A stretch of DNA of 26,607 nucleotides from a virus. Below, in pieces: positions 9,775-26,505 of the stretch. Position numbers and translations under genes: made by a program. The number at the start of each line of letters is the position of its first letter. Position 1 is the first letter of the stretch. The stretch spans positions 1 to 26,607 of IMG/VR virus record IMGVR_UViG_3300024351_000073; one strand, 5' to 3'. The notes beneath the pieces were generated by a model, which saw only the letters and a list, made by a program, of their open reading frames with translations, was not told where the DNA came from and made no database searches.

Positions 9775-9797
9775 TCAAATAAAGGATACCCAGTAAA

Positions 9798-10379
9798 ATG
9801 ACATACCGCGAGACCCAAATAGATGAAGCGTTCCCAGTAGCGGGCGTAGACAACGAAAGCCAAGGCTTCCGTGATAACTTCTCAGCAATTAAAGATACGC
9901 TAATTCAGGCCAAGTCTGACATTCAAGATTTACAAGCATCTAGACTAGACATTTCTAGTCCAGAAACAGATCTTAGCGGAAACACCATTGCTAATGCAAA
10001 CCTAAAAGGTGCCAGTTTCGAATTTAATGCAGGTGGCAACATTGTTGCTAGTCAAAACGTAAGTTTTACCAGCGGAGCATATCATGTGTACACATTGGCT
10101 GCAACAGATCCTGACGCAGGAAGTCCTTTAGAACTTACATTCTCTGACTTACCAGCAAGCGGAACATTGGCTGTTATTAGAGTTCATTTATATGGAAATG
10201 GTACAGAACAATTCTTTTCCTTTAACACAGAATCCATTGGTGACTTCTATGTAGAATCAGGATGGCCCGGTACACAAAGCGTTACTAGTTCGACAAGTCC
10301 AAAGATTTTTGAATTCTGGACTTACGATGGTGGCGTAAACGTATTTGGAAGATACTTAGGTAACTTTACAGCACTATAA
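9798..10379 (+). CDS. Virion structural-type protein, 193 aa
   Basis: ATG at 9798, with AAAGGA about 11 nt upstream. The N-terminus (VAGVDNESQGFRDNFSAIKD, about residues 14-33) is a variant of the short module that starts many structural proteins in marine T4-like phages. It is followed by a short coiled-coil-like stretch (IQAKSDIQDLQASR). The remainder (residues 75-193) looks like a beta-rich globular domain with many aromatic residues, ending in VFGRYLGNFTAL. It has its own late promoter octamer and follows the 1040-aa structural gene. No enzymatic motif is seen. Head/tail position is unknown. Confidence 0.7.
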   Translation: MTYRETQIDEAFPVAGVDNESQGFRDNFSAIKDTLIQAKSDIQDLQASRLDISSPETDLSGNTIANANLKGASFEFNAGGNIVASQNVSFTSGAYHVYTLAATDPDAGSPLELTFSDLPASGTLAVIRVHLYGNGTEQFFSFNTESIGDFYVESGWPGTQSVTSSTSPKIFEFWTYDGGVNVFGRYLGNFTAL

Positions 10380-10612
10380 TGCACCCACTAGCAGAAGATT
10401 TTTCCAAACTAAAGGATGTGGAACTTGAAACTAAGATCCAAGATCTTAGTAGAAGATATTTCATGGCCGCTAGTAACTCTGGAGTTCAACAGCAGATTAT
10501 TATGTTGTTGGACATGTATAAAGCAGAACTAAACATTCGCAGACAAAAACTCTGGGAAGAACAATACCAAAAACGAGACACAGATCTTGACAGCCTCATT
10601 AATGTAAGTTAA
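10379..10612 (+). CDS. Small conserved phage protein of unknown function, 77 aa
   Basis: The ATG at 10379 shares one base with the TAA of the upstream gene (TAATG), so it is translationally coupled. The 77-residue product is charged and predicted helical throughout (KLKDVELETKIQDLSRRYF, then IIMLLDMYKAELNIRRQKLW), with no Cys and no membrane segment. The pattern suggests a small helical or coiled-coil protein. I recognise it only as a type of small conserved gene found near structural genes in T4-like marine phages. Its 3' end contains the promoter of the next operon: the TAA stop (10610-10612) overlaps the -10 hexamer. Confidence 0.65.
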   Translation: MHPLAEDFSKLKDVELETKIQDLSRRYFMAASNSGVQQQIIMLLDMYKAELNIRRQKLWEEQYQKRDTDLDSLINVS

Positions 10613-10615
10613 AAT
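10587..10615 (+). promoter_or_regulatory. Sigma70-like promoter, predicted leaderless start
   Basis: TTGACA (10587-10592), a 17-nt spacer, then TAAAAT (10610-10615). The -10 is followed by exactly 6 nt and then the ATG at 10622, so the expected transcription start is at or within a base or so of the ATG. No Shine-Dalgarno is present before that ATG. It lies inside the 3' end of the preceding gene. Confidence 0.65.
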
Positions 10616-10621
10616 ACTTGC

Positions 10622-11128
10622 ATGAGGATTGATAATTTAGGTATTCCAGTATATTCAGCCAAAGACATCTTTGATTTAATTTACCAAGGTAAATTGGATG
10701 TCTTGCCTAATATTTTGGCAGAGCCTGACGATACAGACGTTAAGCAGTTTAATCTACATACTGAATCTGTAAAAATACGAGAATATCAAGAACCACAACT
10801 TTCTAAAACAGAGTTTGATTCCTTAATGCAGAGTAATTGGAATATGCCTGAGGAATACAAACAAATGGACATTGAAGGGTTCCTTGTTAACGAATGTCCT
10901 AAAGAAAACTACCAAAGACTAATAGAAGAATTACAAGAGTATAGAGAAAGAAATATGCTGGATCTACTACGCTGGCTAAAATACTTTGTAGATACTTGTC
11001 GTAAGGAAGGTATAGTTTGGGGTGTAGGAAGAGGAAGTAGCGTAGCCAGTTATGTACTATACTTAATTGGTGTACATAAAATTGACAGTTTGAAATATAA
11101 TTTAGACTGGCGCGAATTCCTGAGATAA
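10622..11128 (+). CDS. DNA polymerase III alpha (DnaE)-like palm fragment, 168 aa
   Basis: The C-terminal half aligns by eye with the start of the bacterial replicative polymerase palm. Residues 97-132 correspond to the helix pair before the active site (YQRLIEELQEYRERNMLDL, then WLKYFVDTCRKEGI). Residues 134-157 contain GVGRGSSVASYVLYLIG and HKIDSL, matching the DnaE nucleotide-binding motif GPGRGSxxGSLVAYxLGIxxIDPL. The protein stops at DWREFLR, equivalent to FERFLNPER, immediately before the place where the catalytic PDxDxDF would follow. PHP, fingers and beta-binding parts are also absent; DnaE is normally above 1000 aa. Polymerase activity is therefore unlikely. The role may be a triphosphate-binding or host-replisome-interfering protein. 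The start lacks a Shine-Dalgarno and sits at a predicted leaderless promoter. Confidence 0.7.
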   Translation: MRIDNLGIPVYSAKDIFDLIYQGKLDVLPNILAEPDDTDVKQFNLHTESVKIREYQEPQLSKTEFDSLMQSNWNMPEEYKQMDIEGFLVNECPKENYQRLIEELQEYRERNMLDLLRWLKYFVDTCRKEGIVWGVGRGSSVASYVLYLIGVHKIDSLKYNLDWREFLR

Positions 11129-11154
11129 GTACATATATTAAGGAGGACATTAAA

Positions 11155-11379
11155 ATGCCCATGAAACCAGCACCAAAGAAAGTTTATCGTACAGCCAACG
11201 GTAGAACTGTAGATATGGATCTATTGCGTCAACGCAACGAATTAACTCCAGCAGTAGGTAATGCTCGTGTTAATGCCCGCGGAGACGAACTAGGACCTGG
11301 TGGTCAAATTCTTCGCAAACGTGAAGATATTCTAAAAGACTTTTACGAACAATCCGAATTACCACAAGAAAAGGAATAA
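11155..11379 (+). CDS. Small conserved myovirus protein, 74 aa, unknown function
   Basis: ATG at 11155 with a very strong AAGGAGGA upstream (about 11140-11147). The product is basic at the start and acidic at the end. Its core (YRTANGRTVDMDLLRQRNEL, then GNARVNARGDELGPGG) is a pattern I recognise from short conserved proteins of T4-like phages, without a known function. It contains no Cys or membrane segment. It lies 26 nt after the DnaE-like fragment and 3 nt before the co-chaperonin gene, so it belongs to the same early-type operon. A nucleic-acid-binding or structural role would be speculation. Confidence 0.7.
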   Translation: MPMKPAPKKVYRTANGRTVDMDLLRQRNELTPAVGNARVNARGDELGPGGQILRKREDILKDFYEQSELPQEKE

Positions 11380-11382
11380 TAA

Positions 11383-11727
11383 ATGGCGGTAGTTAAAGGA
11401 ACCATTAGACCGTTACATGACAAAGTCATTGTAACAGATATGGATTTCGGTGATACTAAAACGCAAAGCGGTATCATCATTCAAAGCGATGACGGCAAGG
11501 ATCGCGGCATCCATCCAAGATGGGCTAAGGTATTTGCTGTTGGTCCAGAACACGATGAAGAATACGGAGTCGGTGATTGGATATTAGTTGAACACGGACG
11601 ATGGACTAGAGGTATCAAGTACGAAAATGAAAGCGGTGAAGAAATTACTATTCGTATGATTGATAACGAAGCAGTTATGATGTGGGACGACGAAGAACCT
11701 AAAGACATGATTATTGGACACCTATGA
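11383..11727 (+). CDS. groES: GroES/Cpn10-type co-chaperonin (functional analogue of T4 gp31), 114 aa
   Basis: The N-terminus (IRPLHDKVIV, residues 8-17) matches the conserved start of GroES. Residues 21-43 form the mobile loop, with TKTQSGIII in the place of GroES TKSAGGIVL; the III triplet would bind GroEL. Further matches are WAKVFAVGP (about 47-55), VGDWILVE (63-70) and the C-terminal strand with DNEAVMMW. Length is 114 against about 97 for E. coli GroES; the extra residues are mainly at the C-terminus and in the central loop. In T4, gp31 replaces GroES so that GroEL can fold the major capsid protein. A similar role is inferred. ATG at 11383 follows the previous stop by 3 nt. Confidence 0.85.
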   Translation: MAVVKGTIRPLHDKVIVTDMDFGDTKTQSGIIIQSDDGKDRGIHPRWAKVFAVGPEHDEEYGVGDWILVEHGRWTRGIKYENESGEEITIRMIDNEAVMMWDDEEPKDMIIGHL

Positions 11728-12095
11728 CAAACCCATTTCGAGATCAAGAAAAATTCATGGTTGCTTGTGACCAAAGCGTAGATGATTACGACTTTTCACA
11801 ATATGACATGTACTTAAAATTAATTGAAGAAGAATATAAAGAACTTCAACTTGCAGTTGCCGCCAATGATGATGTTGAACAATTGGATGCCTTAATTGAT
11901 ATTTTGGTTGTTACCATCGGTGCTATACATAGTATGGGAGCAGATGCCGAAGGTGCTTGGAAAGAAGTTATGAAAACTAACTTTGCCAAGATCGACAAAG
12001 AAACTGGCAAGGTTCGCAAGCGTGAAGACGGAAAAGTACTTAAACCGCTCGGTTGGACTCCTCCAGTATTAGAACCATTTGTTACCAAAAAATAA
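11724..12095 (+). CDS. MazG / phosphoribosyl-ATP pyrophosphohydrolase-like NTP pyrophosphohydrolase, 123 aa
   Basis: ATGA overlap with the GroES-like gene indicates coupled translation. The all-alpha NTP-PPase signature is visible: EEEYKE (residues 35-40) supplies the first metal-binding acidic cluster, and EQLDALIDILV (52-62) the second ExxD-type helix. KTNFAKID (84-91), followed by TGKVRKREDGKVLKPLGW, is the ending typical of phage members of this family. These enzymes hydrolyse NTPs or dNTPs to monophosphate and pyrophosphate. In marine phages they are proposed to alter nucleotide pools or alarmone signalling in the host. Substrate cannot be read from the sequence. It is the last gene of the first early-type operon and is followed directly by a terminator. 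Confidence 0.8.
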   Translation: MTNPFRDQEKFMVACDQSVDDYDFSQYDMYLKLIEEEYKELQLAVAANDDVEQLDALIDILVVTIGAIHSMGADAEGAWKEVMKTNFAKIDKETGKVRKREDGKVLKPLGWTPPVLEPFVTKK

Positions 12096-12099
12096 CACC

Positions 12100-12124
12100 A
12101 AAGGGTCTTGACGGACCCTTTTTT
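12100..12124 (+). terminator. Rho-independent terminator
   Basis: AAAGGGTC (12100-12107) pairs perfectly with GACCCTTT (12114-12121), giving an 8-bp stem with a 6-nt loop and a run of six T at 12119-12124. It starts 5 nt after the stop of the MazG-like gene. The loop itself is the -35 box of the next promoter. Confidence 0.8.
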
Positions 12125-12136
12125 ATTCTGTATAAT
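12108..12136 (+). promoter_or_regulatory. Sigma70-like promoter embedded in the terminator, predicted leaderless start
   Basis: TTGACG (12108-12113) occupies the loop of the terminator hairpin. A 17-nt spacer contains the stem's right arm and T-run, and a perfect TATAAT follows at 12131-12136. The ATG of the next gene lies exactly 6 nt further, at 12143, with only A residues between and no Shine-Dalgarno. The expected start is at the ATG. Confidence 0.75.
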
Positions 12137-12142
12137 AAAAAA

Positions 12143-12391
12143 ATGAACTGTGATATTTGTAAAAAAGAATATAGTCCAGATTGCGACTACAAACAAGGAA
12201 GGTGTCCGCACCACAAACCAATGATAGATATTCAATCTAAAGATACAAGTAAGTGGCATTTTAGAATCAGCATCGTTAAAAGCGGAATGAGATTTGCCGC
12301 AGGTTATAGATTAATCCAAGGCGATTTAATTGGAGCAGGAGTGTTTATTATTATTGCTGAAGTATTAGGAATTGCGGAGGAATTATTTTGA
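12143..12391 (+). CDS. Small protein with Cys/His cluster and hydrophobic C-terminus, 82 aa, unknown
   Basis: The ATG at 12143 is preferred over an in-frame TTG at 12053, which lies inside the previous gene and upstream of the terminator. The N-terminus has C3-xx-C6, C14 and C21-P-H-H24, a possible small zinc-binding knuckle. Residues 53-82 (AAGYRLIQGDLIGAGVFIII and onward) are mostly hydrophobic and could be a single membrane segment or amphipathic helix. There is no ribosome-binding site; the gene appears to be expressed from a leaderless early transcript. The following gene starts within its last codons. I do not recognise the family. A role in host takeover is possible from its position but is not shown. 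Confidence 0.7.
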   Translation: MNCDICKKEYSPDCDYKQGRCPHHKPMIDIQSKDTSKWHFRISIVKSGMRFAAGYRLIQGDLIGAGVFIIIAEVLGIAEELF

Positions 12392-12609
12392 CAGACGAAC
12401 GATTAGAAGAATTATACGGAACGTATCTGTCATTCACAGATACCATGGCTGGAGAATACGGGCCATTGCCTGTAGCGGCTATTATGATTGCACAGGCACT
12501 GACCATTTATAAATCTGCGCTAAGTCCAGAAGAATATGACACTATGGTGGATAATATTAGTGAAAGCAGAGATCAAGTTAAAACTTTTCAAAAGGCATCG
12601 TTACAATGA
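12388..12609 (+). CDS. Conserved small phage protein, 73 aa, TTG start, unknown
   Basis: TTG at 12388 is selected as start because GGAGG (12376-12380) stands 7 nt upstream and the codon overlaps the previous stop (TTGA). The product is acidic and helical, with a mildly hydrophobic central helix (GPLPVAAIMIAQALTIYKSA, about residues 25-44) too polar at its edges to be a sure membrane span. It sits directly before the clamp loader gene and overlaps it (ATGA). Small genes of this kind are found beside gp44 in marine T4-like phages. It is not a recognisable gp62 (clamp loader small subunit), which is much longer. Confidence 0.7.
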   Translation: MTDERLEELYGTYLSFTDTMAGEYGPLPVAAIMIAQALTIYKSALSPEEYDTMVDNISESRDQVKTFQKASLQ

Positions 12610-13532
12610 AAGAATTATGGGTAGAAAAGTATCGTCCTAAAACTGTAGATGGTTATGTGTTTAAGGATGAAACACTAAAACAGCAAATTGAAAAATGGAT
12701 TAGTCAGAAGGCTATTCCGCACTTGCTGTTTAGCGGCAATGCTGGTACAGGCAAAACTACACTGGCTAAAGTATTGTTAAATGAAATCGGTGTCGAAGAC
12801 ACAGACATTCTTATTGCTAACGGCAGTAAGGAAGGTCGTAAAATTGAATGGATTGATAAACTAATCGGTTTTTGTCAAACTATGCCGTTTGGCGACTATA
12901 AAGTTGTGCTGATCGACGAAGCAGATTATATGAACAAAGATTCTGTTCAACCAGCACTACGTAACTTAATGGAAGATTACAGTAACAGCGTTCGCTTTAT
13001 TTTTACTTGTAACTATCCACACAGAATTATTACTCCAGTTAAAAGTCGTTGCCAAGAAATTAAAATTGAACGCACAGACATTACAGAGTTTACTGCTCGT
13101 GTAGCAACTATTCTTGTAGAAGAAAATATCGAATTTGACTTGGATACACTGGACACTTATGTCAAAGGTACATATCCAGATTTGCGTAAGTGTATTAACA
13201 ACGTTCAAATGAACAGTTTGGCTGGTAAATTAATACTGCCAGATGCTGTAGAAGGTAGTGCAGATTACAGAGTTGAAATGGTTGAACTGTTTAAGAAAGG
13301 CCGTATTCAAGAAGCACGTAAACTGTTATGTAGTCAAGCCCGTCCAGAAGAAATGGAAGAAATCTACACTTGGATGTACAACAACATTACTCTGTTTGGC
13401 AAGGACGAGCATACACAAGACAATGCTGTGCTGGTAATTAAACAAGGATTAGTGGATCACGTATCTATGGCAGATCCTGAAATTAATCTAGCGGCCACGC
13501 TGATTAGATTAGCAAGACTCAATGAAGCCTAA
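12606..13532 (+). CDS. 44: Sliding-clamp loader large subunit (T4 gp44-like AAA+ ATPase), 308 aa
   Basis: The protein opens with LWVEKYRPKTVDGYVF, the RFC/gp44 hallmark. Walker A is SGNAGTGKTT (residues 43-52), Walker B is VVLIDEAD (100-107), and the SRC arginine-finger motif is at 147-149 (PVKSRCQEI). The C-terminal part (residues 165-308) matches the lid and collar domains. T4 gp44 is 319 aa, so this is full length. It forms the 4:1 complex with gp62 that loads the gp45 clamp for replication and for late transcription. No gp62 gene is present in the window. ATG at 12606 overlaps the preceding gene by ATGA. Confidence 0.93.
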   Translation: MKELWVEKYRPKTVDGYVFKDETLKQQIEKWISQKAIPHLLFSGNAGTGKTTLAKVLLNEIGVEDTDILIANGSKEGRKIEWIDKLIGFCQTMPFGDYKVVLIDEADYMNKDSVQPALRNLMEDYSNSVRFIFTCNYPHRIITPVKSRCQEIKIERTDITEFTARVATILVEENIEFDLDTLDTYVKGTYPDLRKCINNVQMNSLAGKLILPDAVEGSADYRVEMVELFKKGRIQEARKLLCSQARPEEMEEIYTWMYNNITLFGKDEHTQDNAVLVIKQGLVDHVSMADPEINLAATLIRLARLNEA

Positions 13533-13971
13533 GTTAGTAAAAGCATACATGAAAACTGCGGAAACATTCGCAGAACTCAGTCATGCTCGTCGATTACACG
13601 TAGGTGCCATTGTAGTTAAAGACGATAGAATTATTAGTATTGGCTACAATGGTATGCCAGCAGGTTGGGATAATAACTGCGAATATGAGATTTGGGAAGA
13701 TAACGGCGACGATGAACCTGAAACAGTTTTAAAAACTAAACCGGAGGTACTACATGCCGAAACAAACGCCATTGCTAAATTGGCCCGTAGTAATGAGTCT
13801 GGGCTTGGTGCTAATATTTTTATTACTCATGCTCCTTGCCTCGATTGCGCCAAACTTATCTATCAGTCTGGCATTAATCGTGTTTACTATGGTGAAAACT
13901 ATAGAGATGACTCGGGGGTCAAGTTTCTCAAAGCATCGGGCATCGAAGTAAAACAAGTGGAGGGGGATTAA
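13522..13971 (+). CDS. cd: Deoxycytidylate (dCMP) deaminase, 149 aa
   Basis: Zinc deaminase motifs are complete: HAE at residues 78-80 (catalytic Glu80, Zn ligand His78) and PCLDC at 105-109 (Zn ligands Cys106 and Cys109). The N-terminal RRLHVGAIVV (24-32) and GYNGMPAG (41-48) fit the ComEB/dCMP deaminase subfamily. The enzyme converts dCMP to dUMP, feeding dTMP synthesis. T4 Cd is about 193 aa; this shorter form is common in phages and bacteria. The gene overlaps the end of gp44 by 11 nt, so both are in one operon for replication and nucleotide supply. It is followed by a hairpin at the convergent border with phoH. Confidence 0.92.
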   Translation: MKPKLVKAYMKTAETFAELSHARRLHVGAIVVKDDRIISIGYNGMPAGWDNNCEYEIWEDNGDDEPETVLKTKPEVLHAETNAIAKLARSNESGLGANIFITHAPCLDCAKLIYQSGINRVYYGENYRDDSGVKFLKASGIEVKQVEGD

Positions 13972-13978
13972 CCCCTCC
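13959..13978. terminator. Probable bidirectional terminator hairpin between convergent genes
   Basis: GGAGGGG (13959-13965) pairs perfectly with CCCCTCC (13972-13978) around a 6-nt loop that holds the stop of the dCMP deaminase gene. It lies between convergent ends at 13971 and 13984. T-runs are weak on both sides, so termination strength is uncertain. Confidence 0.6.
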
Positions 13979-13983
13979 TAGGT

Positions 13984-14739
13984 TTAATCACCGTAAATAG
14001 ACAACACCTCCTTTACTGCTTCGTGTCTTTCGATATCTTTCATACCAAATTGCACGACGCTTAACAAATCTAGTTGTTTATTTGCCAATCGCTCCGTGAA
14101 ATCAATTAAACCGTTATCTTCTAATCTATCGGCTTGTCTTAAATCACCGGTTACGACCATCTTAGAGCCTTCTCCCAATCTCGTTAGCAACATCTTCATT
14201 TGATTTGGCGTAGCATTTTGCATTTCATCTGCAATAATGTATGCCTTCTTGAAGGTTCGACCTCTCATATATGCTAACGGGCTAATTTCAATAACACCTT
14301 CTCGGATCATATTCTCGATATCGCGAGCGTAATAGTACTCGGCTAGCACATCAAAGATGGGTCTAGTCCAGGGAGCCATTTTTTGCTCTAGGGTACCAGG
14401 AAGGAATCCATGATCTTCGTCTACAGAAACAGCAGGGCGTGTTACCACGATTTTATCTACCAACCCTTCTTTAAAGAGTTTAATACCGACTTGACACGCT
14501 ATCAGCGTCTTGCCCGTGCCAGCGGGGCCCAGAGCAAAAACTATGTTTTTTGATGGGTCTAATAGTTTAAATAGATATTCTTCCTGATTACGGTTGCGCG
14601 GAATTACGTGTACGCTCTTTTTCTTCTGTGGAAGACTTTGAGGAAGTGTGTGTTGAAATGGTTGAAACTCAATAACATTTGCTCGAGGATTATTATAGCC
14701 CTCGTTGGCAAAACGTTTTTTGGCTCTTTTTGTCGTCAT
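13984..14739 (-). CDS. phoH: PhoH-family P-loop ATPase, 251 aa
   Basis: The only gene on the minus strand. The start at 14739 is chosen because AAAGGAG lies about 10 nt upstream; two in-frame ATGs farther out (to 14796) lack such a site. The Walker A motif is GPAGTGKT (residues 71-78) and Walker B is AYIIADEMQNA (166-176), followed by NQMKMLLTRLGEGSKMVVTG and RQADR, a block specific to PhoH. The first 50 residues are basic and Pro/Gln-rich. PhoH proteins are cytoplasmic ATPases, linked in other bacteria to RNA metabolism. They are very common in marine phages, where their function is not settled. It converges on the dCMP deaminase gene and shares a hairpin with it. Confidence 0.92.
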   Translation of the reverse strand: MTTKRAKKRFANEGYNNPRANVIEFQPFQHTLPQSLPQKKKSVHVIPRNRNQEEYLFKLLDPSKNIVFALGPAGTGKTLIACQVGIKLFKEGLVDKIVVTRPAVSVDEDHGFLPGTLEQKMAPWTRPIFDVLAEYYYARDIENMIREGVIEISPLAYMRGRTFKKAYIIADEMQNATPNQMKMLLTRLGEGSKMVVTGDLRQADRLEDNGLIDFTERLANKQLDLLSVVQFGMKDIERHEAVKEVLSIYGD

Positions 14740-14785
14740 TAACTGCTCTCCTTTTGAGGCGTAGGACGTCATATTGTCACACTTC

Positions 14786-14812
14786 TTGTAGGACAACTGA
14801 GAGGTCCTACAA
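14786..14812 (-). promoter_or_regulatory. Hairpin in the 5' leader of phoH
   Basis: TTGTAGGAC (14786-14794) and GTCCTACAA (14804-14812) form a perfect 9-bp stem with a 9-nt loop. A third copy of GTAGGAC at 14761-14767 could pair with the same 14804-14810 arm, giving a competing structure closer to the ribosome-binding site. It lies 47-73 nt upstream of the chosen phoH start. No convincing sigma70 promoter was found for phoH. Confidence 0.5.
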
Positions 14813-14866
14813 AAATATTTAACATCTAGAAGAAAAATAGAACTGATACTATATCAAAATCGTCTA

Positions 14867-14874
14867 GATAAATA
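14867..14874 (+). promoter_or_regulatory. T4-type late promoter octamer (GATAAATA)
   Basis: GATAAATA followed by C, 23 nt before the ATG at 14898 and heading a co-directional run of eight closely spaced virion and lysis genes. A start 5-8 nt downstream would retain GAGGG (14882-14886) as ribosome-binding site. Confidence 0.65.
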
Positions 14875-14897
14875 CTTCATCGAGGGATGACTGAAAA

Positions 14898-15464
14898 ATG
14901 CACGATATTTTAGATATTATAGAAAACATCAACACCATATATAACAACAATAGTAGCCTTGCAATCCTTAAGGATTTCGAGCGTGTATTTGACGAGTTGG
15001 ATATGTATGTATTTGAAAACTGGCGCGATGGAGAACTTATCAAAGGACCTGTCGTTGACCGTCATTGGGTCAGTGCTAGTTTTATGTGGCCTCACAAACA
15101 AATGCCTAACCCGCAGGCCGCAAAGCGTTTGATGGAATACGGCTGTCGAGTAATTTACAAAAAAGATACATTAGTCAAGCCTAGAGAAATTAAAGAACCT
15201 GACGACATTCGTCCAGGTACAAAACTTGGTAAACTAGACGAGCATCCAATTTGGATTGTAGAAGTACAGATGCCTAAGAAGTTAATGTTAGAAATTTTCC
15301 GTGGATATCATAACCAATTAATGGACGAACTAGAGCCAGCAAATAATGAAAAGGCGCCAGAGCTTACACCTCCACCAGCAGGTGAAGCCACAGCAGGCGC
15401 ACCACCAGCGGCCGCAGCCGCTCCAGCACCAGGAGGAGAAGCAAGTGCCCCACCAGCCGCTTAA
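14898..15464 (+). CDS. Conserved T4-like phage protein with Pro/Ala-rich tail, 188 aa, probable virion or assembly protein
   Basis: ATG at 14898, first gene after a late promoter octamer. Residues 1-150 form a globular domain with ILKDFERVFDELDMYVFENW, an RHWVSASFMWPHKQMP segment and IRPGTKLGKLDEHPIW. This combination is familiar from conserved late-type proteins of marine T4-like phages, which lack a proven function. Residues 151-188 are almost only Pro, Ala, Gly and Glu, suggesting a flexible tail. The DNA coding for that tail also holds the ribosome-binding site of the next gene. Late timing and neighbours suggest a structural or assembly role. No enzyme motif is visible. Confidence 0.7.
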   Translation: MHDILDIIENINTIYNNNSSLAILKDFERVFDELDMYVFENWRDGELIKGPVVDRHWVSASFMWPHKQMPNPQAAKRLMEYGCRVIYKKDTLVKPREIKEPDDIRPGTKLGKLDEHPIWIVEVQMPKKLMLEIFRGYHNQLMDELEPANNEKAPELTPPPAGEATAGAPPAAAAAPAPGGEASAPPAA

Positions 15465-16188
15465 TGAAACAAGTTTACTAGCCAACGATCTAGTTAATCT
15501 AGTAAATCGTGTATTCGAAGTAGACAATTATAAATCTAAAATGGGCGACGACGAAGATGTCGTTGTTTTAAGTTTTACTGTGGAAAGTCGCAGTCCGGCA
15601 GAAGACTTAGTTAGTTTTGTAGAAAAAGGTTACGACTTTGTTCTAGATGCTGACATGAGTCCCGGTGAATTAGAAGATGGAAAATATCGTGTGTTTGTAG
15701 AATTACAAAGAACAAGTAAAGTTACAGAACAAATCAGCGATATGTTATATGGTATTTCTAAACTAGCAGGCATTGACAAGTTTGCTTTTAGATATCATAA
15801 GAGTTTTGATAGCCTAGAGGCTAATCAAGAAAAACTAGATGAAATTATTCCTACTAATCCTATGTTGTACAAACAACGTATGCAGGAACAGGAACTAAAT
15901 AGTTACGAACAGTTCTTCAACAATAGTATGTTAGAAAGTGTTCGTATGCACGGCGACATTATTGAATTTAAAAAGGTGTACGCTGAGCCATTAAAGTTCA
16001 AATATCTAGTTTCCGGCGGTACAAGAGAAGTATTAGAAAGTGTCGAAGACAGGATTGCTGTCTCATACAACGACATGGCCGAAGTTATGTTTTTAACCAA
16101 GTACATTGGCAACTACAACATTACCAAACTGGGCAACAAGTTCATGTTTGAAAACAAAGGCCGTGCAGTTATTTTGGAGAAACTATAA
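15445..16188 (+). CDS. Conserved T4-like phage protein, 247 aa, GTG start, probable virion or assembly protein
   Basis: The frame is open from 15346, but the GTG at 15445 is chosen. AGGAGGAG (15431-15438) stands 6 nt before it, and the upstream codons are an out-of-frame reading of the neighbour's Pro/Ala tail (runs of Gln and His). The gene overlaps its neighbour by 20 nt. The N-terminus (LANDLVNLVNRVFEVDNY, then GDDEDVVVLSFTVESRSPAE) and the C-terminus (AEVMFLTKYIGNYNITKLG, then FMFENKGRAVILEKL) are typical of a conserved protein of marine T4-like phages. The sequence is soluble and mixed alpha/beta, with no catalytic motif. It is coupled to the preceding gene, so the two may act together. 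Confidence 0.72.
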   Translation: MPHQPLNETSLLANDLVNLVNRVFEVDNYKSKMGDDEDVVVLSFTVESRSPAEDLVSFVEKGYDFVLDADMSPGELEDGKYRVFVELQRTSKVTEQISDMLYGISKLAGIDKFAFRYHKSFDSLEANQEKLDEIIPTNPMLYKQRMQEQELNSYEQFFNNSMLESVRMHGDIIEFKKVYAEPLKFKYLVSGGTREVLESVEDRIAVSYNDMAEVMFLTKYIGNYNITKLGNKFMFENKGRAVILEKL

Positions 16189-20271: not shown

Positions 20272-22495
20272 TCAACTGCAAGTAGTTTTTGAAAAGGCTG
20301 TTGCAGACTGTAAAAAATTAGGACACGAATATGTCACGCTAGAGCATCTTATTTTTGCTATGCTCTGCGAAGAAAAGTTCTACGAACTTCTTGTAAACTT
20401 CGGTGGTGACGGGGATTACATTAAAAAGAATCTCGAACACTATCTTAAAAATCAATTAGACGAAATTAAAATAGATCCAATTCCCAAAGGATTTAAACCT
20501 AAGAAGACTCAAACTGTTGAGCGTGTTCTTAATCGTGCATTCACACAAGTCCTTTTCAGCGGACGTCAAAGCATTGAGCTTGTAGATGTGTTTATGAGCG
20601 CACTTAGCGAAAAGCGCAGTTACGCTGTATTCTATATTAATAAGGGCGGCGTGGATCGTGAAAAGTTTGCTGATTTTATTAACAGCGAAATCGATGAAGA
20701 CGAAGAAGAACAGGTCACAGATGCACAAAGTGAAAAAGCACTGAAAGCATTTACTACTAACCTCAATGACCAAGTCAAGAAAAATAAAATCGATCCAGTT
20801 ATCGGTAGAACTGAAGAACTAGAACAAATTGCGCTAGGGCTCGGTCGCAGAACTAAAAATAATGTATTGTTAGTAGGCGACCCTGGTGTAGGTAAGACTG
20901 CTATCGCAGAAGGCCTAGCACATAATATTATTAATGGTGCTGTTCCTGACTTCTTAAAAGAATATACAGTCTATAACTTAGACATTAGTGCTATGCTTGC
21001 TGGTAGTAAATATCGCGGTGACTTTGAAGAACGTTTTAAATTAGTACTTAAGGCACTAACAGGCAAAGGCAAAACTGTATTGTTCATCGATGAAGCACAC
21101 ATGATTAGTGGCGCAGGCGCAGGTGGACAAGGTAATGCCAATGACTTGGCTAATATGATGAAGCCTGCTCTAAGCAAAGGCAACATTAAAGTAGTTGCAT
21201 CTACTACTTGGGAAGAATATCGTAAGTACTTTGAAAAGGATCGTGCGTTAATGCGCCGTTTCCAACGCATCACTGTTGACGAGCCTACTCCAGAAGTAGC
21301 AGTAGATATTCTTAAAGGTATTAAGAAGTATTACGAAAAACATCACGGTGCTGAAATTACAGATGCGGCTATTGAAACAGCAGTTAAATTATCTGTAAAA
21401 TATATGACAGATAAGAAATTACCAGATAAAGCAATTGATCTAATTGATGTGGCTTGTAGTCGTTTCAATATTAAGAACGCAGAACATAAGATTGTCGATG
21501 TTCCTGAGATTCAATACGAATTAGCAAAAATGGTTAAACTTCCCGAAGACACAGTCAAGGAAAAAGAAAACGAAAATCTTGTTAACCTTGAAAAGAACCT
21601 TAAAGGTGAAGTTTATGGGCAAGATGAAGCCATTGACGAAATCGTTGATAAGATTCTTGTAGCACAAGCAGGACTTAAATCTGATAATAAACCAGTGGGT
21701 AGTTTTGTATTCATGGGGCCAACTGGTGTTGGTAAGACTGAAGCCGCAAAACAACTTAGTAAACAGTTAGGTGTTCCACTTATTCGCTTTGACATGTCGG
21801 AGTATCAAGAAAAACACAGCGTATCTAAGTTGATTGGTAGCCCTCCTGGATATGTTGGCTTTGAAGAAAACGCTGGCTTGTTGATTACTAAACTACAAGA
21901 GAATCCACATTGTGTTCTATTGTTAGACGAAATTGAAAAGTCACATCCAGATGTAGCAACTATCCTATTACAGATTATGGACAATGGTTTTGTAACAGGA
22001 TCTAATGGTAAAGTAGCAGATGCTCGTAACATTATTTTGATTATGACTACTAACCTTGGCGCACAAGATGCTGAAAAGAACGTTATTGGTTTTGGTAGTC
22101 AAGATAATGACTACGAAGATAAAGAACTTAAGAAATTCTTCGCTCCAGAGTTCCGCAATCGTTTAGATGGTGTTGTTACATTTGGTAAACTAAGCAAAGA
22201 AACAATGATTAAAATTGTTGGCAAGTTCTTAGTTGAGTTAAAAACACAGGTCAAGGATAAGGGCATTAAGATTACAATCAGCAACGAAGCAATTGACTAC
22301 TTGGTAGATAAGGGCTTTGATAAGAAGATGGGTGCTCGCCCATTGCAACGTGTAATCGATAAGGATATTAAGCGTCCATTATCCAAACTTATGTTGTTTG
22401 GTGGTCTGAAACAGGGTGGAGCAGTAAACATCAATGTTGAAGACGATGAAATTAAACTCGAATTACAGAATGAAACTGTACAAGCAAACATCTAA
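20255..22495 (+). CDS. clpA: ClpA-like AAA+ protein unfoldase, 746 aa
   Basis: ATG at 20255 with GAGGA upstream, overlapping def by 17 nt. A Clp N-domain covers about residues 1-145. D1 has Walker A GDPGVGKT (208-215), Walker B VLFIDEAH (275-282) and the substrate pore-loop motif KYRGDFE (252-258). D2 has Walker A GPTGVGKT (488-495), Walker B VLLLDEIE (554-561) and pore segment GYVG. There is no long middle domain, so it is ClpA-like rather than ClpB. A conserved IGF (611-613) lies where ClpA has its IGL loop that docks on ClpP. Length is close to E. coli ClpA (758). The protein should unfold substrates, possibly feeding the host ClpP. Confidence 0.92.
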   Translation: MVEPSDQLQVVFEKAVADCKKLGHEYVTLEHLIFAMLCEEKFYELLVNFGGDGDYIKKNLEHYLKNQLDEIKIDPIPKGFKPKKTQTVERVLNRAFTQVLFSGRQSIELVDVFMSALSEKRSYAVFYINKGGVDREKFADFINSEIDEDEEEQVTDAQSEKALKAFTTNLNDQVKKNKIDPVIGRTEELEQIALGLGRRTKNNVLLVGDPGVGKTAIAEGLAHNIINGAVPDFLKEYTVYNLDISAMLAGSKYRGDFEERFKLVLKALTGKGKTVLFIDEAHMISGAGAGGQGNANDLANMMKPALSKGNIKVVASTTWEEYRKYFEKDRALMRRFQRITVDEPTPEVAVDILKGIKKYYEKHHGAEITDAAIETAVKLSVKYMTDKKLPDKAIDLIDVACSRFNIKNAEHKIVDVPEIQYELAKMVKLPEDTVKEKENENLVNLEKNLKGEVYGQDEAIDEIVDKILVAQAGLKSDNKPVGSFVFMGPTGVGKTEAAKQLSKQLGVPLIRFDMSEYQEKHSVSKLIGSPPGYVGFEENAGLLITKLQENPHCVLLLDEIEKSHPDVATILLQIMDNGFVTGSNGKVADARNIILIMTTNLGAQDAEKNVIGFGSQDNDYEDKELKKFFAPEFRNRLDGVVTFGKLSKETMIKIVGKFLVELKTQVKDKGIKITISNEAIDYLVDKGFDKKMGARPLQRVIDKDIKRPLSKLMLFGGLKQGGAVNINVEDDEIKLELQNETVQANI

Positions 22496-23114
22496 ATTGT
22501 TTTTTGACAAATATGTCAACAAGATTAGTGTAATAAATGTTTTTGCTTCGGAGTTTCGTAGCAGAACTATCGCTCGGGCAATGGCTTCAATCAAGATTCT
22601 TAGTGATCAAATTGAAGCCGTCCCGGATGGTAGAGTACAACTTAGATCCTGGCGTAAGAAATATGCTACAGTCAGTGATGTAATCTACATAAACAAACTT
22701 GTAGATTTACTTAATAAAGAAACTGATTTTTTGTTGCGTGTAGAAAGCGACACATTAAGCATTTACACCAACAGTGATTCTTTATTAGATGCTGTTCAAC
22801 TATTAGGACATGTTAAAGAAGTAACTAAACCTGCAGACGATAAAGTTAGGAAGTTTCTATTAACTAACCCTAACTGTATTATATCTAAAAAGTATACGCA
22901 CAAGTATAGAGTAACTGTAAATCCTCTACGTGATTCTAGCGAAAGTTTCCACGCATGGGCAGAGCAGATTCCCAGCATTAAACTGCTAAAGCGTACATAC
23001 CACTCCGAAGGCTACTTTTACGCCGCAAATGAAAAGACCCTAGGAATGTGCAGACTATTCCTGGGCAATAAGATACGCAGAGTGGACGAAATGTACCTAA
23101 TCAGCGAAATTTAA
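22470..23114 (+). CDS. Conserved phage protein of unknown function, 214 aa
   Basis: The ATG at 22470 is favoured: it begins MKLYKQTSKLFFDKYVNKI, an N-terminus I recognise from unassigned proteins of marine T4-like phages. An ATG 36 nt earlier lies deeper inside clpA. The overlap with clpA is 26 nt, and no clear Shine-Dalgarno is seen, so coupling to clpA translation is likely. The protein is basic and soluble, with no Cys cluster and no P-loop. It ends the early-type operon. No terminator is visible after it; a late promoter follows 17 nt later. Function is unknown. Confidence 0.7.
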   Translation: MKLYKQTSKLFFDKYVNKISVINVFASEFRSRTIARAMASIKILSDQIEAVPDGRVQLRSWRKKYATVSDVIYINKLVDLLNKETDFLLRVESDTLSIYTNSDSLLDAVQLLGHVKEVTKPADDKVRKFLLTNPNCIISKKYTHKYRVTVNPLRDSSESFHAWAEQIPSIKLLKRTYHSEGYFYAANEKTLGMCRLFLGNKIRRVDEMYLISEI

Positions 23115-23130
23115 TACAGTTGTAAAATAG

Positions 23131-23138
23131 CATAAATA
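23131..23138 (+). promoter_or_regulatory. T4-type late promoter octamer (CATAAATA)
   Basis: CATAAATA followed by C, located 17 nt after the previous gene and 54 nt before the ATG at 23192. It would drive the nucleotidyltransferase cassette as a late operon. Confidence 0.6.
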
Positions 23139-23191
23139 CTCTATTAGTGGAGTATGTATATCCGCGGCTCTATGCAGAACATGGTGATTAT

Positions 23192-23536
23192 ATGAAAATA
23201 AATGATGTAGATAAGCAAGCAGAACAGTTTAAAGACGTCGATTTCGTCGATGATTTAAAGTTTTTTATGCACAACGACCCACGTTTTTATCGTAAGGTAG
23301 TTTATCCTGTAATCGCTGAATTAAAAGGCAAGTTGAAATCCGGCGGCAAGTGCAACGAAATGTCATTTATGCCCTGCATCGATAAAGCCATACCAGTTTA
23401 TTGCAATAAATTCAAAATCACCCAAAACCCAAAAGTATTATTCGATCCCGAAGAAGTACAGGACTTGGCTGTTAAAATGTTCCACGAAGAAAAACATAAC
23501 ATCGAAAACGGTGTTTATGATGGGAGAGATGAATGA
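23192..23536 (+). CDS. Small conserved phage protein, 114 aa, unknown
   Basis: The ATG at 23192 is chosen over an in-frame GTG at 23147, because the GTG would fall within a few bases of the late transcription start. With the ATG the protein begins MKINDVDKQAEQF. A core DDLKFFMHNDPRFYRKVVYP resembles small late proteins of marine T4-like phages. A Cys-containing segment (GGKCNEMSFMPCIDKAIPVY) follows, with three Cys in about 20 residues, possibly metal-binding. If the GTG were used, 15 more residues would be added, including RLYAEH. It is the first gene of the last late operon and overlaps the next gene by 4 nt. Confidence 0.65.
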   Translation: MKINDVDKQAEQFKDVDFVDDLKFFMHNDPRFYRKVVYPVIAELKGKLKSGGKCNEMSFMPCIDKAIPVYCNKFKITQNPKVLFDPEEVQDLAVKMFHEEKHNIENGVYDGRDE

Positions 23537-24387
23537 TCCTATTAGAAGGTGGAAATGTATTTCCTGATGTAGAACCATTTGGCAAGGATGAAGCCAAGGA
23601 AGTACTAGCCAAGGCGCAATCAATGATGCCGCAGGGCATTGATTTAATTCCTGTTGGCAGTGCCGGCCATAAAGCCAGTTCTGGAGACATGGACTTAATG
23701 GTCGACGAGCAGTCCATGTTAGACTTTTTTAAAGTTAAGACAGCCAAAGAAGCAAGACAAAAATTAAAAACATACTTTCAAGATAGAGGCACCGAATCTG
23801 CACTAACTGGCATCAATGTACACATTAAAGTTCCTAACGGCGATAAGTTTGCACAAGCAGATATTATGTTTGTTAAAGATGCTGGCTCTGTTAGTAAATT
23901 TCATCAACACGATTATAGCATTGAAAATACTCCATTCAAAGGTTTACATAAGCACATACTACTTTCCAGTATTGCTAAAGAAACTCGTAACCAAAGATAT
24001 CCTTACGGACTAATGTGGAGCGGATTCCAAGGGCTGTTTGCCCGAGATGAAAATGGAAAGAAGGCAGACTTTGTTTCTCACAATGCAGACGAAGTTGCTA
24101 AAATTTTAATCGGTGCTCATGCTACTGCCGCTGACTTAGGTAATGTAGAAAGAATTATTGCCGCACTACCAGGTAAAGAACAAAATCCAAAAATTCAACA
24201 CGCACTAGCCGATGAGAACTGGCCTGGCAACGAAGGCAAAAAGCCTGAAGATGTTAAAGAAGGTTCTGCCGAATGGTTCTCATGGATGCAAGGCGTAGTA
24301 GAAGGTACTTATGGACGTTACTGGTGCAGTACAGATAAAAAATGGAAACAACGTAAAGGTCCCAAGCAGTCAAGGGGCGAAGAATGA
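23533..24387 (+). CDS. Pol-beta superfamily nucleotidyltransferase-like protein, 284 aa
   Basis: ATG at 23533 overlaps the previous stop (ATGA), with GGGAGAG upstream. The fold signature is clear: hydrophobic strand, G42-S43, then SGDMD with D52 and D54, and a third carboxylate D110 in FAQADIMFV. Such a triad binds two metals and transfers nucleotides to RNA, protein or small molecules (families include poly(A)/CCA polymerases, MNT-type toxins and AMPylating enzymes). The target cannot be read. The very short N-terminus MILLE-GG resembles a gp21-type cleavage site. It is followed directly by a KxDG protein and an HxGH nucleotidyltransferase. Confidence 0.8.
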   Translation: MILLEGGNVFPDVEPFGKDEAKEVLAKAQSMMPQGIDLIPVGSAGHKASSGDMDLMVDEQSMLDFFKVKTAKEARQKLKTYFQDRGTESALTGINVHIKVPNGDKFAQADIMFVKDAGSVSKFHQHDYSIENTPFKGLHKHILLSSIAKETRNQRYPYGLMWSGFQGLFARDENGKKADFVSHNADEVAKILIGAHATAADLGNVERIIAALPGKEQNPKIQHALADENWPGNEGKKPEDVKEGSAEWFSWMQGVVEGTYGRYWCSTDKKWKQRKGPKQSRGEE

Positions 24388-25532
24388 GATTAAGAGAACT
24401 ATTTGTTGAATCCACAGAAACAGTTAAAAAGAAACTGGGCCGTGCATTCAACCATCTCGAAGATCTAGTTTTCTTCTACGGCATCGACGGTACCATCGAA
24501 GCATTAGACCACGTTAAAGAAATCGCTACACAAGAAGGTTCTGAAAGCATTCGCATGAAATGGGACGGTAATCCTCAAATCTATTGGGGTCGTGAAACAA
24601 AGAATGGACCATTAATTCTAGCAGGACACAACGGTTGGGCACGTGGTGCTAAGACAGATAATCCAGAAGCAGTAAAAGATTTTATTGCTAACAAGAGCGG
24701 TACACCTAAGACAGAAGAAGAGCGTAAACAACGTGAAGAATTTGCCGCCAAGTTTGCAAATTTATATCCAGCATTTGATGCGGCAACTCCAAAAGATTTT
24801 GTAGGCTTTGTCTATGCTGACGCATTATTTTTAAACAGGCCCGATTTAAAAGACGGAGTATACACATTCTGTCCAAATCCTAAATCACAAACTTGTTATC
24901 ATGTCAGAGGCGACAGTGATTTAGGTAAGCGTATTGCTTATGCAGATGTAATGGTTGTCGGTCATGCTTATTTCCCACAATTTGGAATGGATGACAGTGA
25001 ACAAGAACCGTTAGACGATTTTGATCAATTTAATGCTAATCCTAAATTAATTGTACAAGGTCCGATATACAATAAAAAATCTGTTAGTATCGATACTAAG
25101 ATGATTGATAACATTGAAGGTTATGCACAACAACACGCAGAACAAATCGAAGGATTCTTGTCCGATACTGCTGGGTTAAGTGACCTTAAGAATATATTCT
25201 ACACCTATGTAAATCAAACAGCAAGAGCTAAACAGTTAAGCAGTTTAGGTTTACAGAATTTTAACGCATGGTTGGAAAAGTCAAAAGTTAGTGCAGGAAA
25301 ACAAGAAAAAATACAGGCTAAAATAGAAGCCCATCCTAACGCTGTAGATGCTATATTTTCTCTAGTTAAACAAATACAATCAATGAAAAACCAAATACTT
25401 GCACAGGTTGAAGGCGAGCAAGGAGATATCTGGGACACAAACGGAGAAGGTCGTGTACGCTATGCTGGCCCTGAAAAGAAATTCGGTAATGTAAAGTTAG
25501 TAAACAGAGACCAGTGGACTCCTGGGGAATAA
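24384..25532 (+). CDS. KxDG-motif (ligase-like nucleotidyltransferase?) phage protein, 382 aa
   Basis: ATGA overlap with the upstream gene. Residues 58-66 read MKWDGNPQI; K59-W-D-G62 is the spacing of motif I in covalent nucleotidyltransferases (DNA/RNA ligases, capping enzymes), where Lys takes the AMP. A following G-rich stretch (LILAGHNGWARG) and a later FVGFVYADALFL could be the motif II-III region, but later motifs are not certain. Related proteins in marine T4-like phages are unassigned (a DUF-type family). The C-terminal 100 residues are helical and charged. N-terminal MRLRELFVE-S is like a T4 capsid-targeting peptide. Function as an RNA or DNA ligase is a hypothesis. Confidence 0.7.
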   Translation: MRLRELFVESTETVKKKLGRAFNHLEDLVFFYGIDGTIEALDHVKEIATQEGSESIRMKWDGNPQIYWGRETKNGPLILAGHNGWARGAKTDNPEAVKDFIANKSGTPKTEEERKQREEFAAKFANLYPAFDAATPKDFVGFVYADALFLNRPDLKDGVYTFCPNPKSQTCYHVRGDSDLGKRIAYADVMVVGHAYFPQFGMDDSEQEPLDDFDQFNANPKLIVQGPIYNKKSVSIDTKMIDNIEGYAQQHAEQIEGFLSDTAGLSDLKNIFYTYVNQTARAKQLSSLGLQNFNAWLEKSKVSAGKQEKIQAKIEAHPNAVDAIFSLVKQIQSMKNQILAQVEGEQGDIWDTNGEGRVRYAGPEKKFGNVKLVNRDQWTPGE

Positions 25533-25533
25533 T

Positions 25534-26505
25534 ATGAGATTAAGAAATTTATTTGAAAATAAAACAAGTGAAGTAGCCATTATATTTGGTCGATTCAATC
25601 CTCCGCACAAAGGACATAAAGCCGCTTGGGAAACTGCCGCTACTAAAGATGTATGGTACGTTGGTACTAATGAAAGTACTGTAGGACCAAAAGACCCACT
25701 GCCATACAATGTAAAAACAGAATGTATGAAAGTTATTTGGCCTGATGTTACAGGACATATTGTTGCCGAAACAAGTTGGTTAACATTAGCCAGTTATGTA
25801 TATCAGAAACACGGTGCAGTAAAATTAATCATCGTTACTGACGAAGCATGGGTAGTTCCTACTGTACAAGATTATAATGGAAAGTCTGGTCCGCACGGCG
25901 AATACAATTTTCCAGAAATTAGACTGTTCCACGACAGTATAGAAGAAGCAAAATTAGAATTACGTAAGAGCTCTGCTACAAGTTTACGTGAAGCAGTAGC
26001 CAAAGGCGACAGACAAGCATTTAGCGATGCCGCTGGCGTAAGTTCAGAAACACCTGTTATGGGTAAACCATTCTTTGACTTAGTTGCCGAGTACTTGATG
26101 CCCTATGAAGAAAAGGCGAAGGAAAAAGCAAAGAAAAAAGATTCTAAGAAAAAAGAAGAACCTAAGAAAAAAGAAGAGCCTAAAAAAGAAAAAGAACCTA
26201 AGAAGGAAAAAGATGCTATGAAAATGTCAGAATTAGAAGAAGGCCGTTACGGTAGTTACGATGCGTATCAACGCGATTACGATTCTAGTCGCACAGGCTT
26301 TGGACGTCGTGAACGCGAAGATGATGAATATGTTAATGGACCGGATCCAGAAGAGTATTCATTCCGTTTTACTCTTATTGACAAGGACGGAAATGAAGTT
26401 GAAAGAACACCCCGTGTAACTACTACTAAAGGTCGCGAACACGCAAAGAATTATGCTCACGATCACTACGTAAAAGCAGGATTTACTGTTGTTAAGGTTT
26501 CATAA
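25534..26505 (+). CDS. HxGH-type nucleotidylyltransferase (NMN adenylyl-/cytidylyltransferase-like) with Lys-rich linker and extra C-terminal domain, 323 aa
   Basis: Residues 14-31 hold a strand and GRFNPPHKGHKAAW, the HxGH signature (H25, H28) of the family containing NadM/NadR-type NMN adenylyltransferases and glycerol-3-phosphate cytidylyltransferases. SSATSLREAV (146-155) stands in for the second signature (ISSTxxR). Residues 194-228 are a Lys/Glu/Pro linker made of about four 18-bp repeats. Residues 229-323 form a separate acidic-then-globular domain (EEYSFRFTLIDKDGNEVERT) of unknown role; an in-frame ATG at 26218 begins it. The N-terminus MRLRNLFE-N resembles a capsid-targeting peptide. 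NAD or CDP-linked chemistry is inferred; the substrate is not known. Confidence 0.8.
   Translation: MRLRNLFENKTSEVAIIFGRFNPPHKGHKAAWETAATKDVWYVGTNESTVGPKDPLPYNVKTECMKVIWPDVTGHIVAETSWLTLASYVYQKHGAVKLIIVTDEAWVVPTVQDYNGKSGPHGEYNFPEIRLFHDSIEEAKLELRKSSATSLREAVAKGDRQAFSDAAGVSSETPVMGKPFFDLVAEYLMPYEEKAKEKAKKKDSKKKEEPKKKEEPKKEKEPKKEKDAMKMSELEEGRYGSYDAYQRDYDSSRTGFGRREREDDEYVNGPDPEEYSFRFTLIDKDGNEVERTPRVTTTKGREHAKNYAHDHYVKAGFTVVKVS
26143..26214 (+). repeat. Four imperfect 18-bp tandem repeats (Lys/Glu/Pro linker)
   Basis: Units 26143-26160, 26161-26178, 26179-26196 and 26197-26214, each close to CCTAAGAAAAAAGAAGAA, code for P/S-KKKEE blocks in the linker of the HxGH nucleotidylyltransferase. Copy number may vary between relatives. 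Confidence 0.8.

Follow-up and report, generated by a model that had tools for sequence, protein, structure and literature searches.

Organization of a late operon encoding three nucleotidyl-transferring folds

The stretch of DNA analysed here (the window) is the 26,607-nucleotide sequence of the IMG/VR virus record IMGVR_UViG_3300024351_000073. Towards its end, three consecutive open reading frames (ORFs) at positions 23533-26505 encode an X-family DNA-polymerase-like protein, a ligase-like protein of the DUF6267 family and an HxGH protein resembling NMNATs and cytidylyltransferases; the last two start with short leaders that are candidate capsid-targeting sequences. Using four probes spread across it, the window was located, collinear and on the minus strand, inside a viral contig of 270,181 bases (the parent contig). 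The operon comprises the following features:

23131-23139, plus strand: late-promoter-like sequence CATAAATAC of the T4 late type, before the operon (from the sequence; motif enriched upstream of parent-contig genes)
23192-23536, plus strand: small protein at the head of the operon (GTG 23147 is the listed start)
23533-24387, plus strand: X-family DNA-polymerase-like protein (gene 1), 284 amino acids (AlphaFold2 model, Foldseek, VIA, motifs)
24384-25532, plus strand: DUF6267 ligase-like protein (gene 2), 382 amino acids (PF19782, VIA, invariant motifs)
25534-26505, plus strand: HxGH NMNAT/cytidylyltransferase-like protein (gene 3), 323 amino acids, with a K/E-rich C-terminal part (PHROG matches)

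The polymerase-like gene is joined by ATGA overlaps both to the upstream ORF, which ends at 23536, and to the DUF6267 gene, and the HxGH gene follows the latter after a gap of 1 nt. An earlier reading of the window made from its letters alone (the sequence-only reading) had described the junctions within the trio and the motifs of the three proteins; the junctions were confirmed, and the motifs were borne out at the residue level. It had also placed a late promoter before the trio; this type of sequence is enriched in the parent contig, where [CTG]ATAAATA occurs 19 times in the sense orientation within 80 bp upstream of genes (compared to 1.1 expected). In the window, ATAAATA sites of the late-promoter type are found at 6620, 9768, 14868 and 23132, each preceded by G or C. 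The upstream gene probably starts at ATG 23192 (MKINDVD...) rather than at the listed GTG, as do some relatives, which begin with MKINDV... or MKINDI...; if this start is correct, the gene belongs to the same operon as the trio. A few relatives of this small protein start with MKIQDLFENV.

The first gene encodes an X-family polymerase-like protein

The first protein carries G42-S43 followed by S50-G51-D52-M53-D54 and then D110, and the three aspartates D52, D54 and D110 are invariant in the 30 aligned relatives. It has no Pfam or PHROG match, and across its 30 relatives only two weak matches to NTP_transf_2 were obtained (best E 0.027). An AlphaFold2 model based on an alignment of 30 sequences had a mean confidence (pLDDT) of 81.5 and a pTM of 0.71. 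When this model was compared to the PDB with Foldseek, the 50 rows listed were all X-family enzymes, the best being pol lambda (E 7.6e-8). VIA aligned residues 3-209 of the model with residues 104-338 of the pol beta chain (Z 10.2, 174 residues, root-mean-square deviation 3.8), covering palm and thumb. In a viral structure library, the fold was shared by Caudovirales proteins (best E 2.4e-20) and by a pithovirus protein annotated as PolX (E 1.4e-5).

The window protein thus shares the catalytic triad and the palm-thumb fold with pol beta, pol lambda and viral PolX. It differs from them in having no sequence-profile match, in its location in a phage late operon and, as far as its length indicates, in being too short at 284 amino acids for an added 8-kDa lyase domain. 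The pol-beta type active site claimed by the sequence-only reading holds, and Foldseek and VIA refine it to an X-family polymerase-like protein: on the basis of the model, gene 1 very likely encodes an X-family (pol beta/lambda) fold, with a predicted gap-filling activity. No homolog was found in named phages with the window protein as query; another member of the family gave one weak match to an Agrobacterium phage, present in two records. Nothing usable came out when the polymerase alignment, or the DUF6267 alignment, was run as a profile against PDB sequences.

DUF6267 proteins are predicted to be ligase-like

The second protein belongs to DUF6267 (Pfam PF19782, E 2.8e-16) and has no Pfam ligase match. 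The 42 aligned members, whose identity goes down to 22%, all carry K59, W60, D61, G62, E355, G356 and K371, and at least 90% of them carry D146; distant members outside this alignment carry KYDG or KMDG instead of KWDG. We take KxDG, EG and the late lysine to be ligase motifs I, IV and V. In the AlphaFold2 model (pLDDT 89.4, pTM 0.81), residues 1-19 have a pLDDT below 50. With VIA, rows 1 to 31 were all ligases or ligase complexes, headed by T4 Rnl2 (Z 5.9), an archaeal DNA ligase (5.8) and RNA editing ligase (5.8); these values are weak in absolute terms and, by the tool's own warning, a Z below 8 may reflect merely a common arrangement. From row 32 onwards (Z of 4.3 or less), helical proteins were mixed with further ligases.

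The DUF6267 protein shares KxDG, EG and the late lysine with ATP-dependent DNA and RNA ligases (the covalent nucleotidyltransferases), which are also its best structural matches. It differs from them by the lack of a Pfam ligase match, by a helical insertion of about 110 residues (about 232-345) before the EG motif and by the end of the chain 11 residues past K371, which leaves no OB domain and no motif VI. The sequence-only reading had proposed a ligase-type fold for the KWDG protein; the VIA matches agree with this, whereas Foldseek alone gave nothing significant. Based on the VIA matches and the motifs, we consider a ligase-like fold probable, and sealing is its predicted activity. As the parent contig encodes a separate ATP-type DNA ligase (Pfam DNA_ligase_A_M), the DUF6267 protein would be an extra ligase-like protein.

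The family is widespread in phage records: Syn33 gp181 (T4-GC 71), a cyanophage relative, matches 470 of them, many being near-duplicates. A full-text search of the open-access literature retrieved no paper naming DUF6267, and when two peptide patterns were scanned against contigs of bacterial genomes, none of the 19 matches was confirmed as a DUF6267 relative. Recycling by NMNAT of the products of an NAD-dependent ligase was considered; the adenylation domains of NAD ligases ranked lower in VIA (Z 4.0 and 3.9), which does not exclude it. The profile phrog_455 (764 positions) matches both families, DUF6267 proteins at about 18-341 and the HxGH protein of S-SZBM1 at 406-695. Natural fusions could be the reason, but as the ORFs of loci L001-L096 include no fused one, this idea was not used.

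These structural matches bear on the RNA-repair module proposed by the sequence-only reading, in which the polymerase-like enzyme would restore lost nucleotides and the ligase-like enzyme would seal tRNAs cut by host defence nucleases. The best structural matches of the DUF6267 protein include T4 RNA ligase 2 and RNA editing ligase, tied with DNA ligases; jumbo phages pair a Pol-beta nucleotidyltransferase (RlaP) with RNA ligases (PMC7824862), and an NT5C nucleotidase-like protein is encoded two genes past the trio in the parent contig. However, the 50 Foldseek rows listed for the first protein are all template-directed X-family DNA polymerases, which point to DNA, and Pfam RNA_ligase was found in none of three large contigs (polynucleotide kinase was not searched for). 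RNA repair is thus not supported so far and we regard it as improbable.

The third protein is NMNAT-like and has relatives in virions

The third protein contains HKGH within GRFNPPHKGH and, further on, SSATSLR with R152, which resembles SxTxxR. It matches phrog_3041 (E 4.4e-16) and phrog_395 (E 1.7e-13), with the PHROG annotation 'cytidyltransferase'. When 26 relatives were compared to NCBIfam, the generic domain was found in 24, and weak matches to NadR-type NMN and to NaMN adenylyltransferases in 8 and 7, respectively. The window protein matched the generic TIGR00125 only, with 23 bits (below the cut-off of 27.7), and reached no curated NMNAT cut-off. When the HxGH alignment was searched against PDB sequences, low-complexity matches to huntingtin came first, and NMNAT (E 0.015) and NadR (0.064) followed. 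On these sequence grounds the protein is quite likely NMNAT-like, with a predicted enzyme activity.

Mass spectrometry of virions has revealed relatives of this protein in S-SM1 (PMC3037559), S-SZBM1 (PMC9146016, Table 1 of which holds 30 proteins), S-SCSM1 (PMC9602691, the label in the record agreeing) and S-CREM2 (PMC10665884), and two of these virion-proteome papers cite S-CBWM1 for a virion HxGH enzyme. The 'virion protein' labels of S-SCSM1 are those of the record tables and were not recounted against the 45 proteins of PMC9602691. The virion NMNAT/cytidylyltransferases of cyanophages (T4-GC 190) and the window protein belong to the same HxGH family. A leader is present on those of S-SZBM1 (MRFRQFIIEA) and S-SCSM1 (MKSFLQFLKEA), and in S-CAM4, Syn33, S-SZBM1 and S-RIM14 the gene lies directly behind the DUF6267 gene. 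In contrast to this likeness, the window protein is only 25-26% identical, over 166-213 residues, to the S-SZBM1 and S-SCSM1 proteins, and its gene has an X-family polymerase gene nearby whereas, by profile, none was found in the cyanophages examined.

A second alternative follows from the nature of this protein: once delivered, it might rebuild nicotinamide adenine dinucleotide (NAD+) after attack by a host NADase, the other two proteins being passengers. Its NMNAT-like sequence and the presence of relatives in virions are in line with this, and effects on NAD were proposed by the authors of PMC9602691 and PMC10665884. However, the NAPRTase/NAMPT family (PF04095) was found in none of the three large contigs, which are maybe incomplete, so that only ready-made nicotinamide mononucleotide would be usable, and it would not be explained why the other two genes are linked to gene 3. 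The complete NAD-restoring pathway envisaged by the sequence-only reading is therefore not supported so far, and NAD restoration appears about as improbable as RNA repair.

The three genes recur together in related loci

Related loci were collected from 284 matching stretches, 255 of which encode DUF6267 relatives; the best 80 were fetched, corresponding to 60 distinct ones. The counts below come from these 80 most similar loci, a choice that favours conserved order. Among the 56 loci whose flank measured 900 bp or more, 42 have the polymerase gene at most 1 kb upstream of the DUF6267 gene (in 37 of these at 50 nt or less), and in 14 it was not found there. The HxGH gene was found at most 1 kb downstream in 41 of the 52 loci with at least 700 bp of flank (38 at 50 nt or less) and was not found in 11. 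All three genes were present together in 25 of 48 testable loci. The sequence-only reading had taken the trio for a functional unit of three unrelated folds. The recurrence of the group, which goes beyond chance, agrees with this and the genes do not occur together rarely; the association is no rule, as gene 1 or gene 3 is absent from part of the loci. Locus L029 has an additional gene (7450-8004) separating the polymerase gene from the ligase-like gene; its product starts in a leader-like manner (MRASEFITEL...).

In six of nine named phages (S-CAM4, Syn33, Melnitz, S-SZBM1, DLP_6 and S-RIM14), the DUF6267 and HxGH genes are adjacent or one gene apart. One gene separates them in the soil phage DLP_6 of Stenotrophomonas (L137, 4953-8844), where the proteins start with MMKFTQFLAES and MKNIKDILEA. 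The genes found in the polymerase position in cyanophages and in DLP_6 are not polymerases by profile, apart from S-SZBM1_142, which gave a marginal 9.3 bits. Proteins with D...SLKK-like patterns are encoded upstream of the DUF6267 or HxGH gene in S-SCSM1 (ORF90, L143 47458-48792), S-SZBM1 (S-SZBM1_142, L132 6671-8008) and S-CAM4 (L094 8446-9969); these cyanophage proteins look nuclease-like.

The ligase-like and HxGH proteins share an N-terminal leader

The second and third proteins of the window start with MRLRELFVES and MRLRNLFENK, respectively, and the first 12 nucleotides of both are identical (ATGAGATTAAGA). This shared leader was not part of the sequence-only reading. The corresponding features are:

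24384-24410, plus strand: leader MRLRELFVE of the DUF6267 protein, candidate capsid-targeting sequence, with possible cleavage after E9
25534-25557, plus strand: leader MRLRNLFE of the HxGH protein, candidate capsid-targeting sequence, with possible cleavage after E8

Variants in relatives include MRANEFLREAE, MRAFEFLKEAE, MKLRQLFEG and MLLRELFEA. The conserved core follows close behind in most of them, and in some a module of 30 residues stands between leader and core. We compared 52 distinct DUF6267 leaders, taken from 91 loci with a readable start: within residues 4-22, [LIFMV]xE is present in all 52 and the strict [LI]xE in 39. The site of the window DUF6267 protein, F-V-E, fits the relaxed form only, and that of the HxGH protein (LFE) fits the strict L/I-x-E. 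In the HxGH family, [LI]xE is present in 29 of 32 distinct leaders, the other three having been cut at an internal methionine by the script; two loci without a readable start were dropped. In both families, synonymous codons vary at the conserved leader residues while the amino acids are constant, which indicates that selection acts on the peptide.

A leader pattern was then sought at gene starts. In three large contigs it was present at 18 of 583 genes compared to 5 of 2,768 internal methionines (p 2.4e-10), and the excess persisted without the two defining families (12/577 compared to 5/2,768, p 1.7e-6). Per contig, the counts are 3/278, 8/167 and 7/138 for genes and 4/1,288, 1/795 and 0/685 for internal methionines. 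When any start was allowed, contig G002 showed two further ORFs with the pattern (22429-22629 and 267056-267592), which are outside these counts. The examined loci contain 241 leader-bearing ORFs of at least 90 amino acids, in 16 sequence clusters; in the largest, ligase-like and HxGH proteins fall together, probably on account of a module common to both, and some of the small ones are perhaps due to chance. The pattern also matches the S-SZBM1 HxGH protein, the only ORF of that genome to do so, and the DLP_6 DUF6267 protein. A second, stricter pattern was tried: the NMNAT of S-SCSM1 was its sole match there, and nothing was found in S-SZBM1 or in the T4 segment. Since each of the two patterns misses some phages, no single pattern covers all leaders.

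Between leader and core, some ligase-like proteins (L015, L019, L020, L021, L023, L025, L026 and L038) carry the exchangeable module WSxKYKxSINCSNPKGFSQKAHCAGRKK. This module, which appears to be a mobile piece, is also present at the start of a DUF6321 protein (L118, 9939-10658) and towards the C terminus of an HxGH protein (L030, 9156-10772).

The closest known counterpart of these leaders is found on the internal proteins of T4 (IPI-IPIII and Alt), in which unrelated mature parts likewise follow a short leader at the N terminus, where basic and hydrophobic residues precede an x-E site. IPII and IPIII start with MKTYQEFIAEA, to which the window-type leaders are similar by eye. We assume that the leader of Alt is likewise a capsid-targeting sequence cut by gp21. 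As in T4, a late-type promoter precedes the genes, and the parent contig encodes a head protease of the T4 gp21-type family PF03420 (E 7.8e-27; three of the ten records searched contain the family). For IPIII, the ten N-terminal residues are enough to direct packaging, and cleavage by gp21 takes place behind L/I-x-E (PMC9026906). Unlike in T4, the leaders are 8-9 residues long instead of 10, the leader pattern does not match those of T4, the DUF6267 site is F-V-E instead of L/I-x-E, and the cargo, whose packaging is predicted from sequence, would be ligase-like and NMNAT-like.

The leader might alternatively be a by-product of translation coupling or of a duplication at the DNA level at gene starts, and not a targeting signal. 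The 12 shared nucleotides would be explained in this way, and the pattern was defined after the fact and does not match T4's own leaders. However, the synonymous codon changes at conserved residues, the similar-looking leaders in the distant phages DLP_6, Melnitz, S-RIM14 and S-SCSM1, and the detection of gene 3 relatives in virions all argue for a targeting role. Of the alternatives considered, a by-product is in our view the least probable.

Leaders and genes in the neighbourhood of the trio

The parent contig was followed beyond the window (L108, which covers 160001-180000; row at 7942-16037, minus strand). The row downstream of the trio encodes a protein of 95 amino acids, an NT5C-like/DUF6782 protein with nucleotidase/metallopeptidase-like character, a protein starting with MRLIDIINEG and, further on, a DUF3008 protein, a ferritin-like protein and a peptidoglycan-binding protein; some of the starts are leader-like. 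The NT5C-like protein is presumably a HAD-type phosphatase. The remaining genes of the window include those for a ClpA-like ATPase, DnaJ, a peptide deformylase, a clamp loader, PhoH and an endolysin.

This neighbourhood raises the possibility that the products of the operon are head cargo without a joint pathway, i.e. independently acting ejected proteins that share only the leader and the late operon. Other proteins encoded in this region carry leaders as well (in contig G003, 7 of 8 leader matches lie within 9 kb, although one, on a ferritin-like protein, is probably due to chance), genes 1 and 3 are each absent from part of the loci, and nucleotidase-like and ferritin-like proteins are encoded downstream. 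However, the close spacing of the polymerase and ligase-like genes (at most 1 kb in 42 of 56 loci, 37 at 50 nt or less) is not accounted for by cargo that acts independently. We consider this possibility unlikely, but less so than the other alternatives.

A putative head-cargo operon

The explanation that we favour, tentatively and with somewhat less than even confidence, is that the trio forms a late head-cargo operon of a large T4-like myophage, for which repair of the incoming genome is the role most simply suggested. Late in infection, the leaders would carry the ligase-like and NMNAT-like proteins into the prohead, where gp21 would cut them after the glutamate, and at the next infection the cargo would be ejected into the cell together with the genome, like the internal proteins of T4. 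The joint role would most likely be to work on the incoming DNA ahead of phage gene expression: the X-family polymerase could fill short gaps, the ligase-like enzyme could seal them, and the NMNAT-type enzyme could supply or restore NAD+ or adenylate. Repair of the DNA that enters is suggested by the presence of a polymerase from a gap-filling family beside a ligase-like protein. The parts of this scheme do not have the same strength. The NMNAT-like protein is probably packaged in the head, and packaging of the ligase-like protein is favoured, if less firmly. Packaging of the polymerase-like protein, which has no clear leader, is doubtful though possible, and the same applies to DNA repair as the shared purpose of the trio.

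Several observations weigh against this explanation. Firstly, the pattern was written after viewing the leaders of the two genes, and in the window's own contig its excess is slight (3/278 genes compared to 4/1,288 internal methionines). It matches neither IPII and IPIII of T4 nor the HxGH leaders of S-SCSM1, Syn33, S-RIM14 and DLP_6; its sole match in S-SCSM1 is another ORF and in T4 it likewise matches one other ORF, and the likeness of leaders across distant phages was judged by eye. Because the pattern matches the leaders of neither T4 nor S-SCSM1, our estimates of packaging and our overall confidence were slightly lowered. Moreover, neither the polymerase-like protein of the window nor the HxGH protein of S-CAM4 has a clear leader or a leader, respectively, and other virion proteins (S-SZBM1_139 and S-SCSM1 ORF90) have none, so that the leader is not the sole way into the head. 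Secondly, the authors of PMC9602691 and PMC10665884 point out that the enzymes detected in virions may be carry-over from strong expression. The virion literature examined, to the extent that its text was available, includes no DUF6267 protein and no proteome of the window phage. The DUF6267 relatives of S-SZBM1 and S-SCSM1 (MAKNTHLEHLEDD and MQNKHQEHPEDT) have no leader and are outside the virion proteins reported or labelled in the sources covered. Thirdly, the DUF6267 and HxGH genes are far apart in S-SCSM1, and no HxGH or cytidylyltransferase gene is annotated near the DUF6267 gene in the stretches examined of ACG-2014f and a Vibrio phage. The polymerase has no profile-level counterpart in the cyanophages examined, nor next to the DUF6267 gene in the named phages tested. 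Finally, the Foldseek search with the whole DUF6267 chain gave no PDB match at E <= 0.001, and the weak ligase match in VIA (Z 5.9) cannot separate a DNA from an RNA ligase.

The cyanophage DUF6267 proteins, which lack both a leader and a place in the virion lists, fit the idea that the leader decides packaging; as these relatives are leaderless, it is the leader that speaks for packaging of the window DUF6267 protein. Virion NMNATs have been described before, as have proteins that a targeting leader brings into the head. In the open-access papers searched, nothing was found on DUF6267 as a ligase-like family, on its leader, on an X-family polymerase partner or on the combination.

In its most specific form, which we regard as rather unlikely, the operon would provide a packaged kit for DNA gap filling and sealing, in which an X-family polymerase, a dedicated ligase and an NMNAT feeding or balancing NAD and adenylate mend the genome before phage expression. 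Giant eukaryotic viruses package repair enzymes, and such a phage kit would be their counterpart in bacterial viruses. Combined, the results propose a testable function for DUF6267 and for an X-family-like polymerase missed by the profile libraries searched, and a leader before an x-E site may serve as a simple sequence clue for listing the possible head cargo of T4-like phages of lakes and seas.

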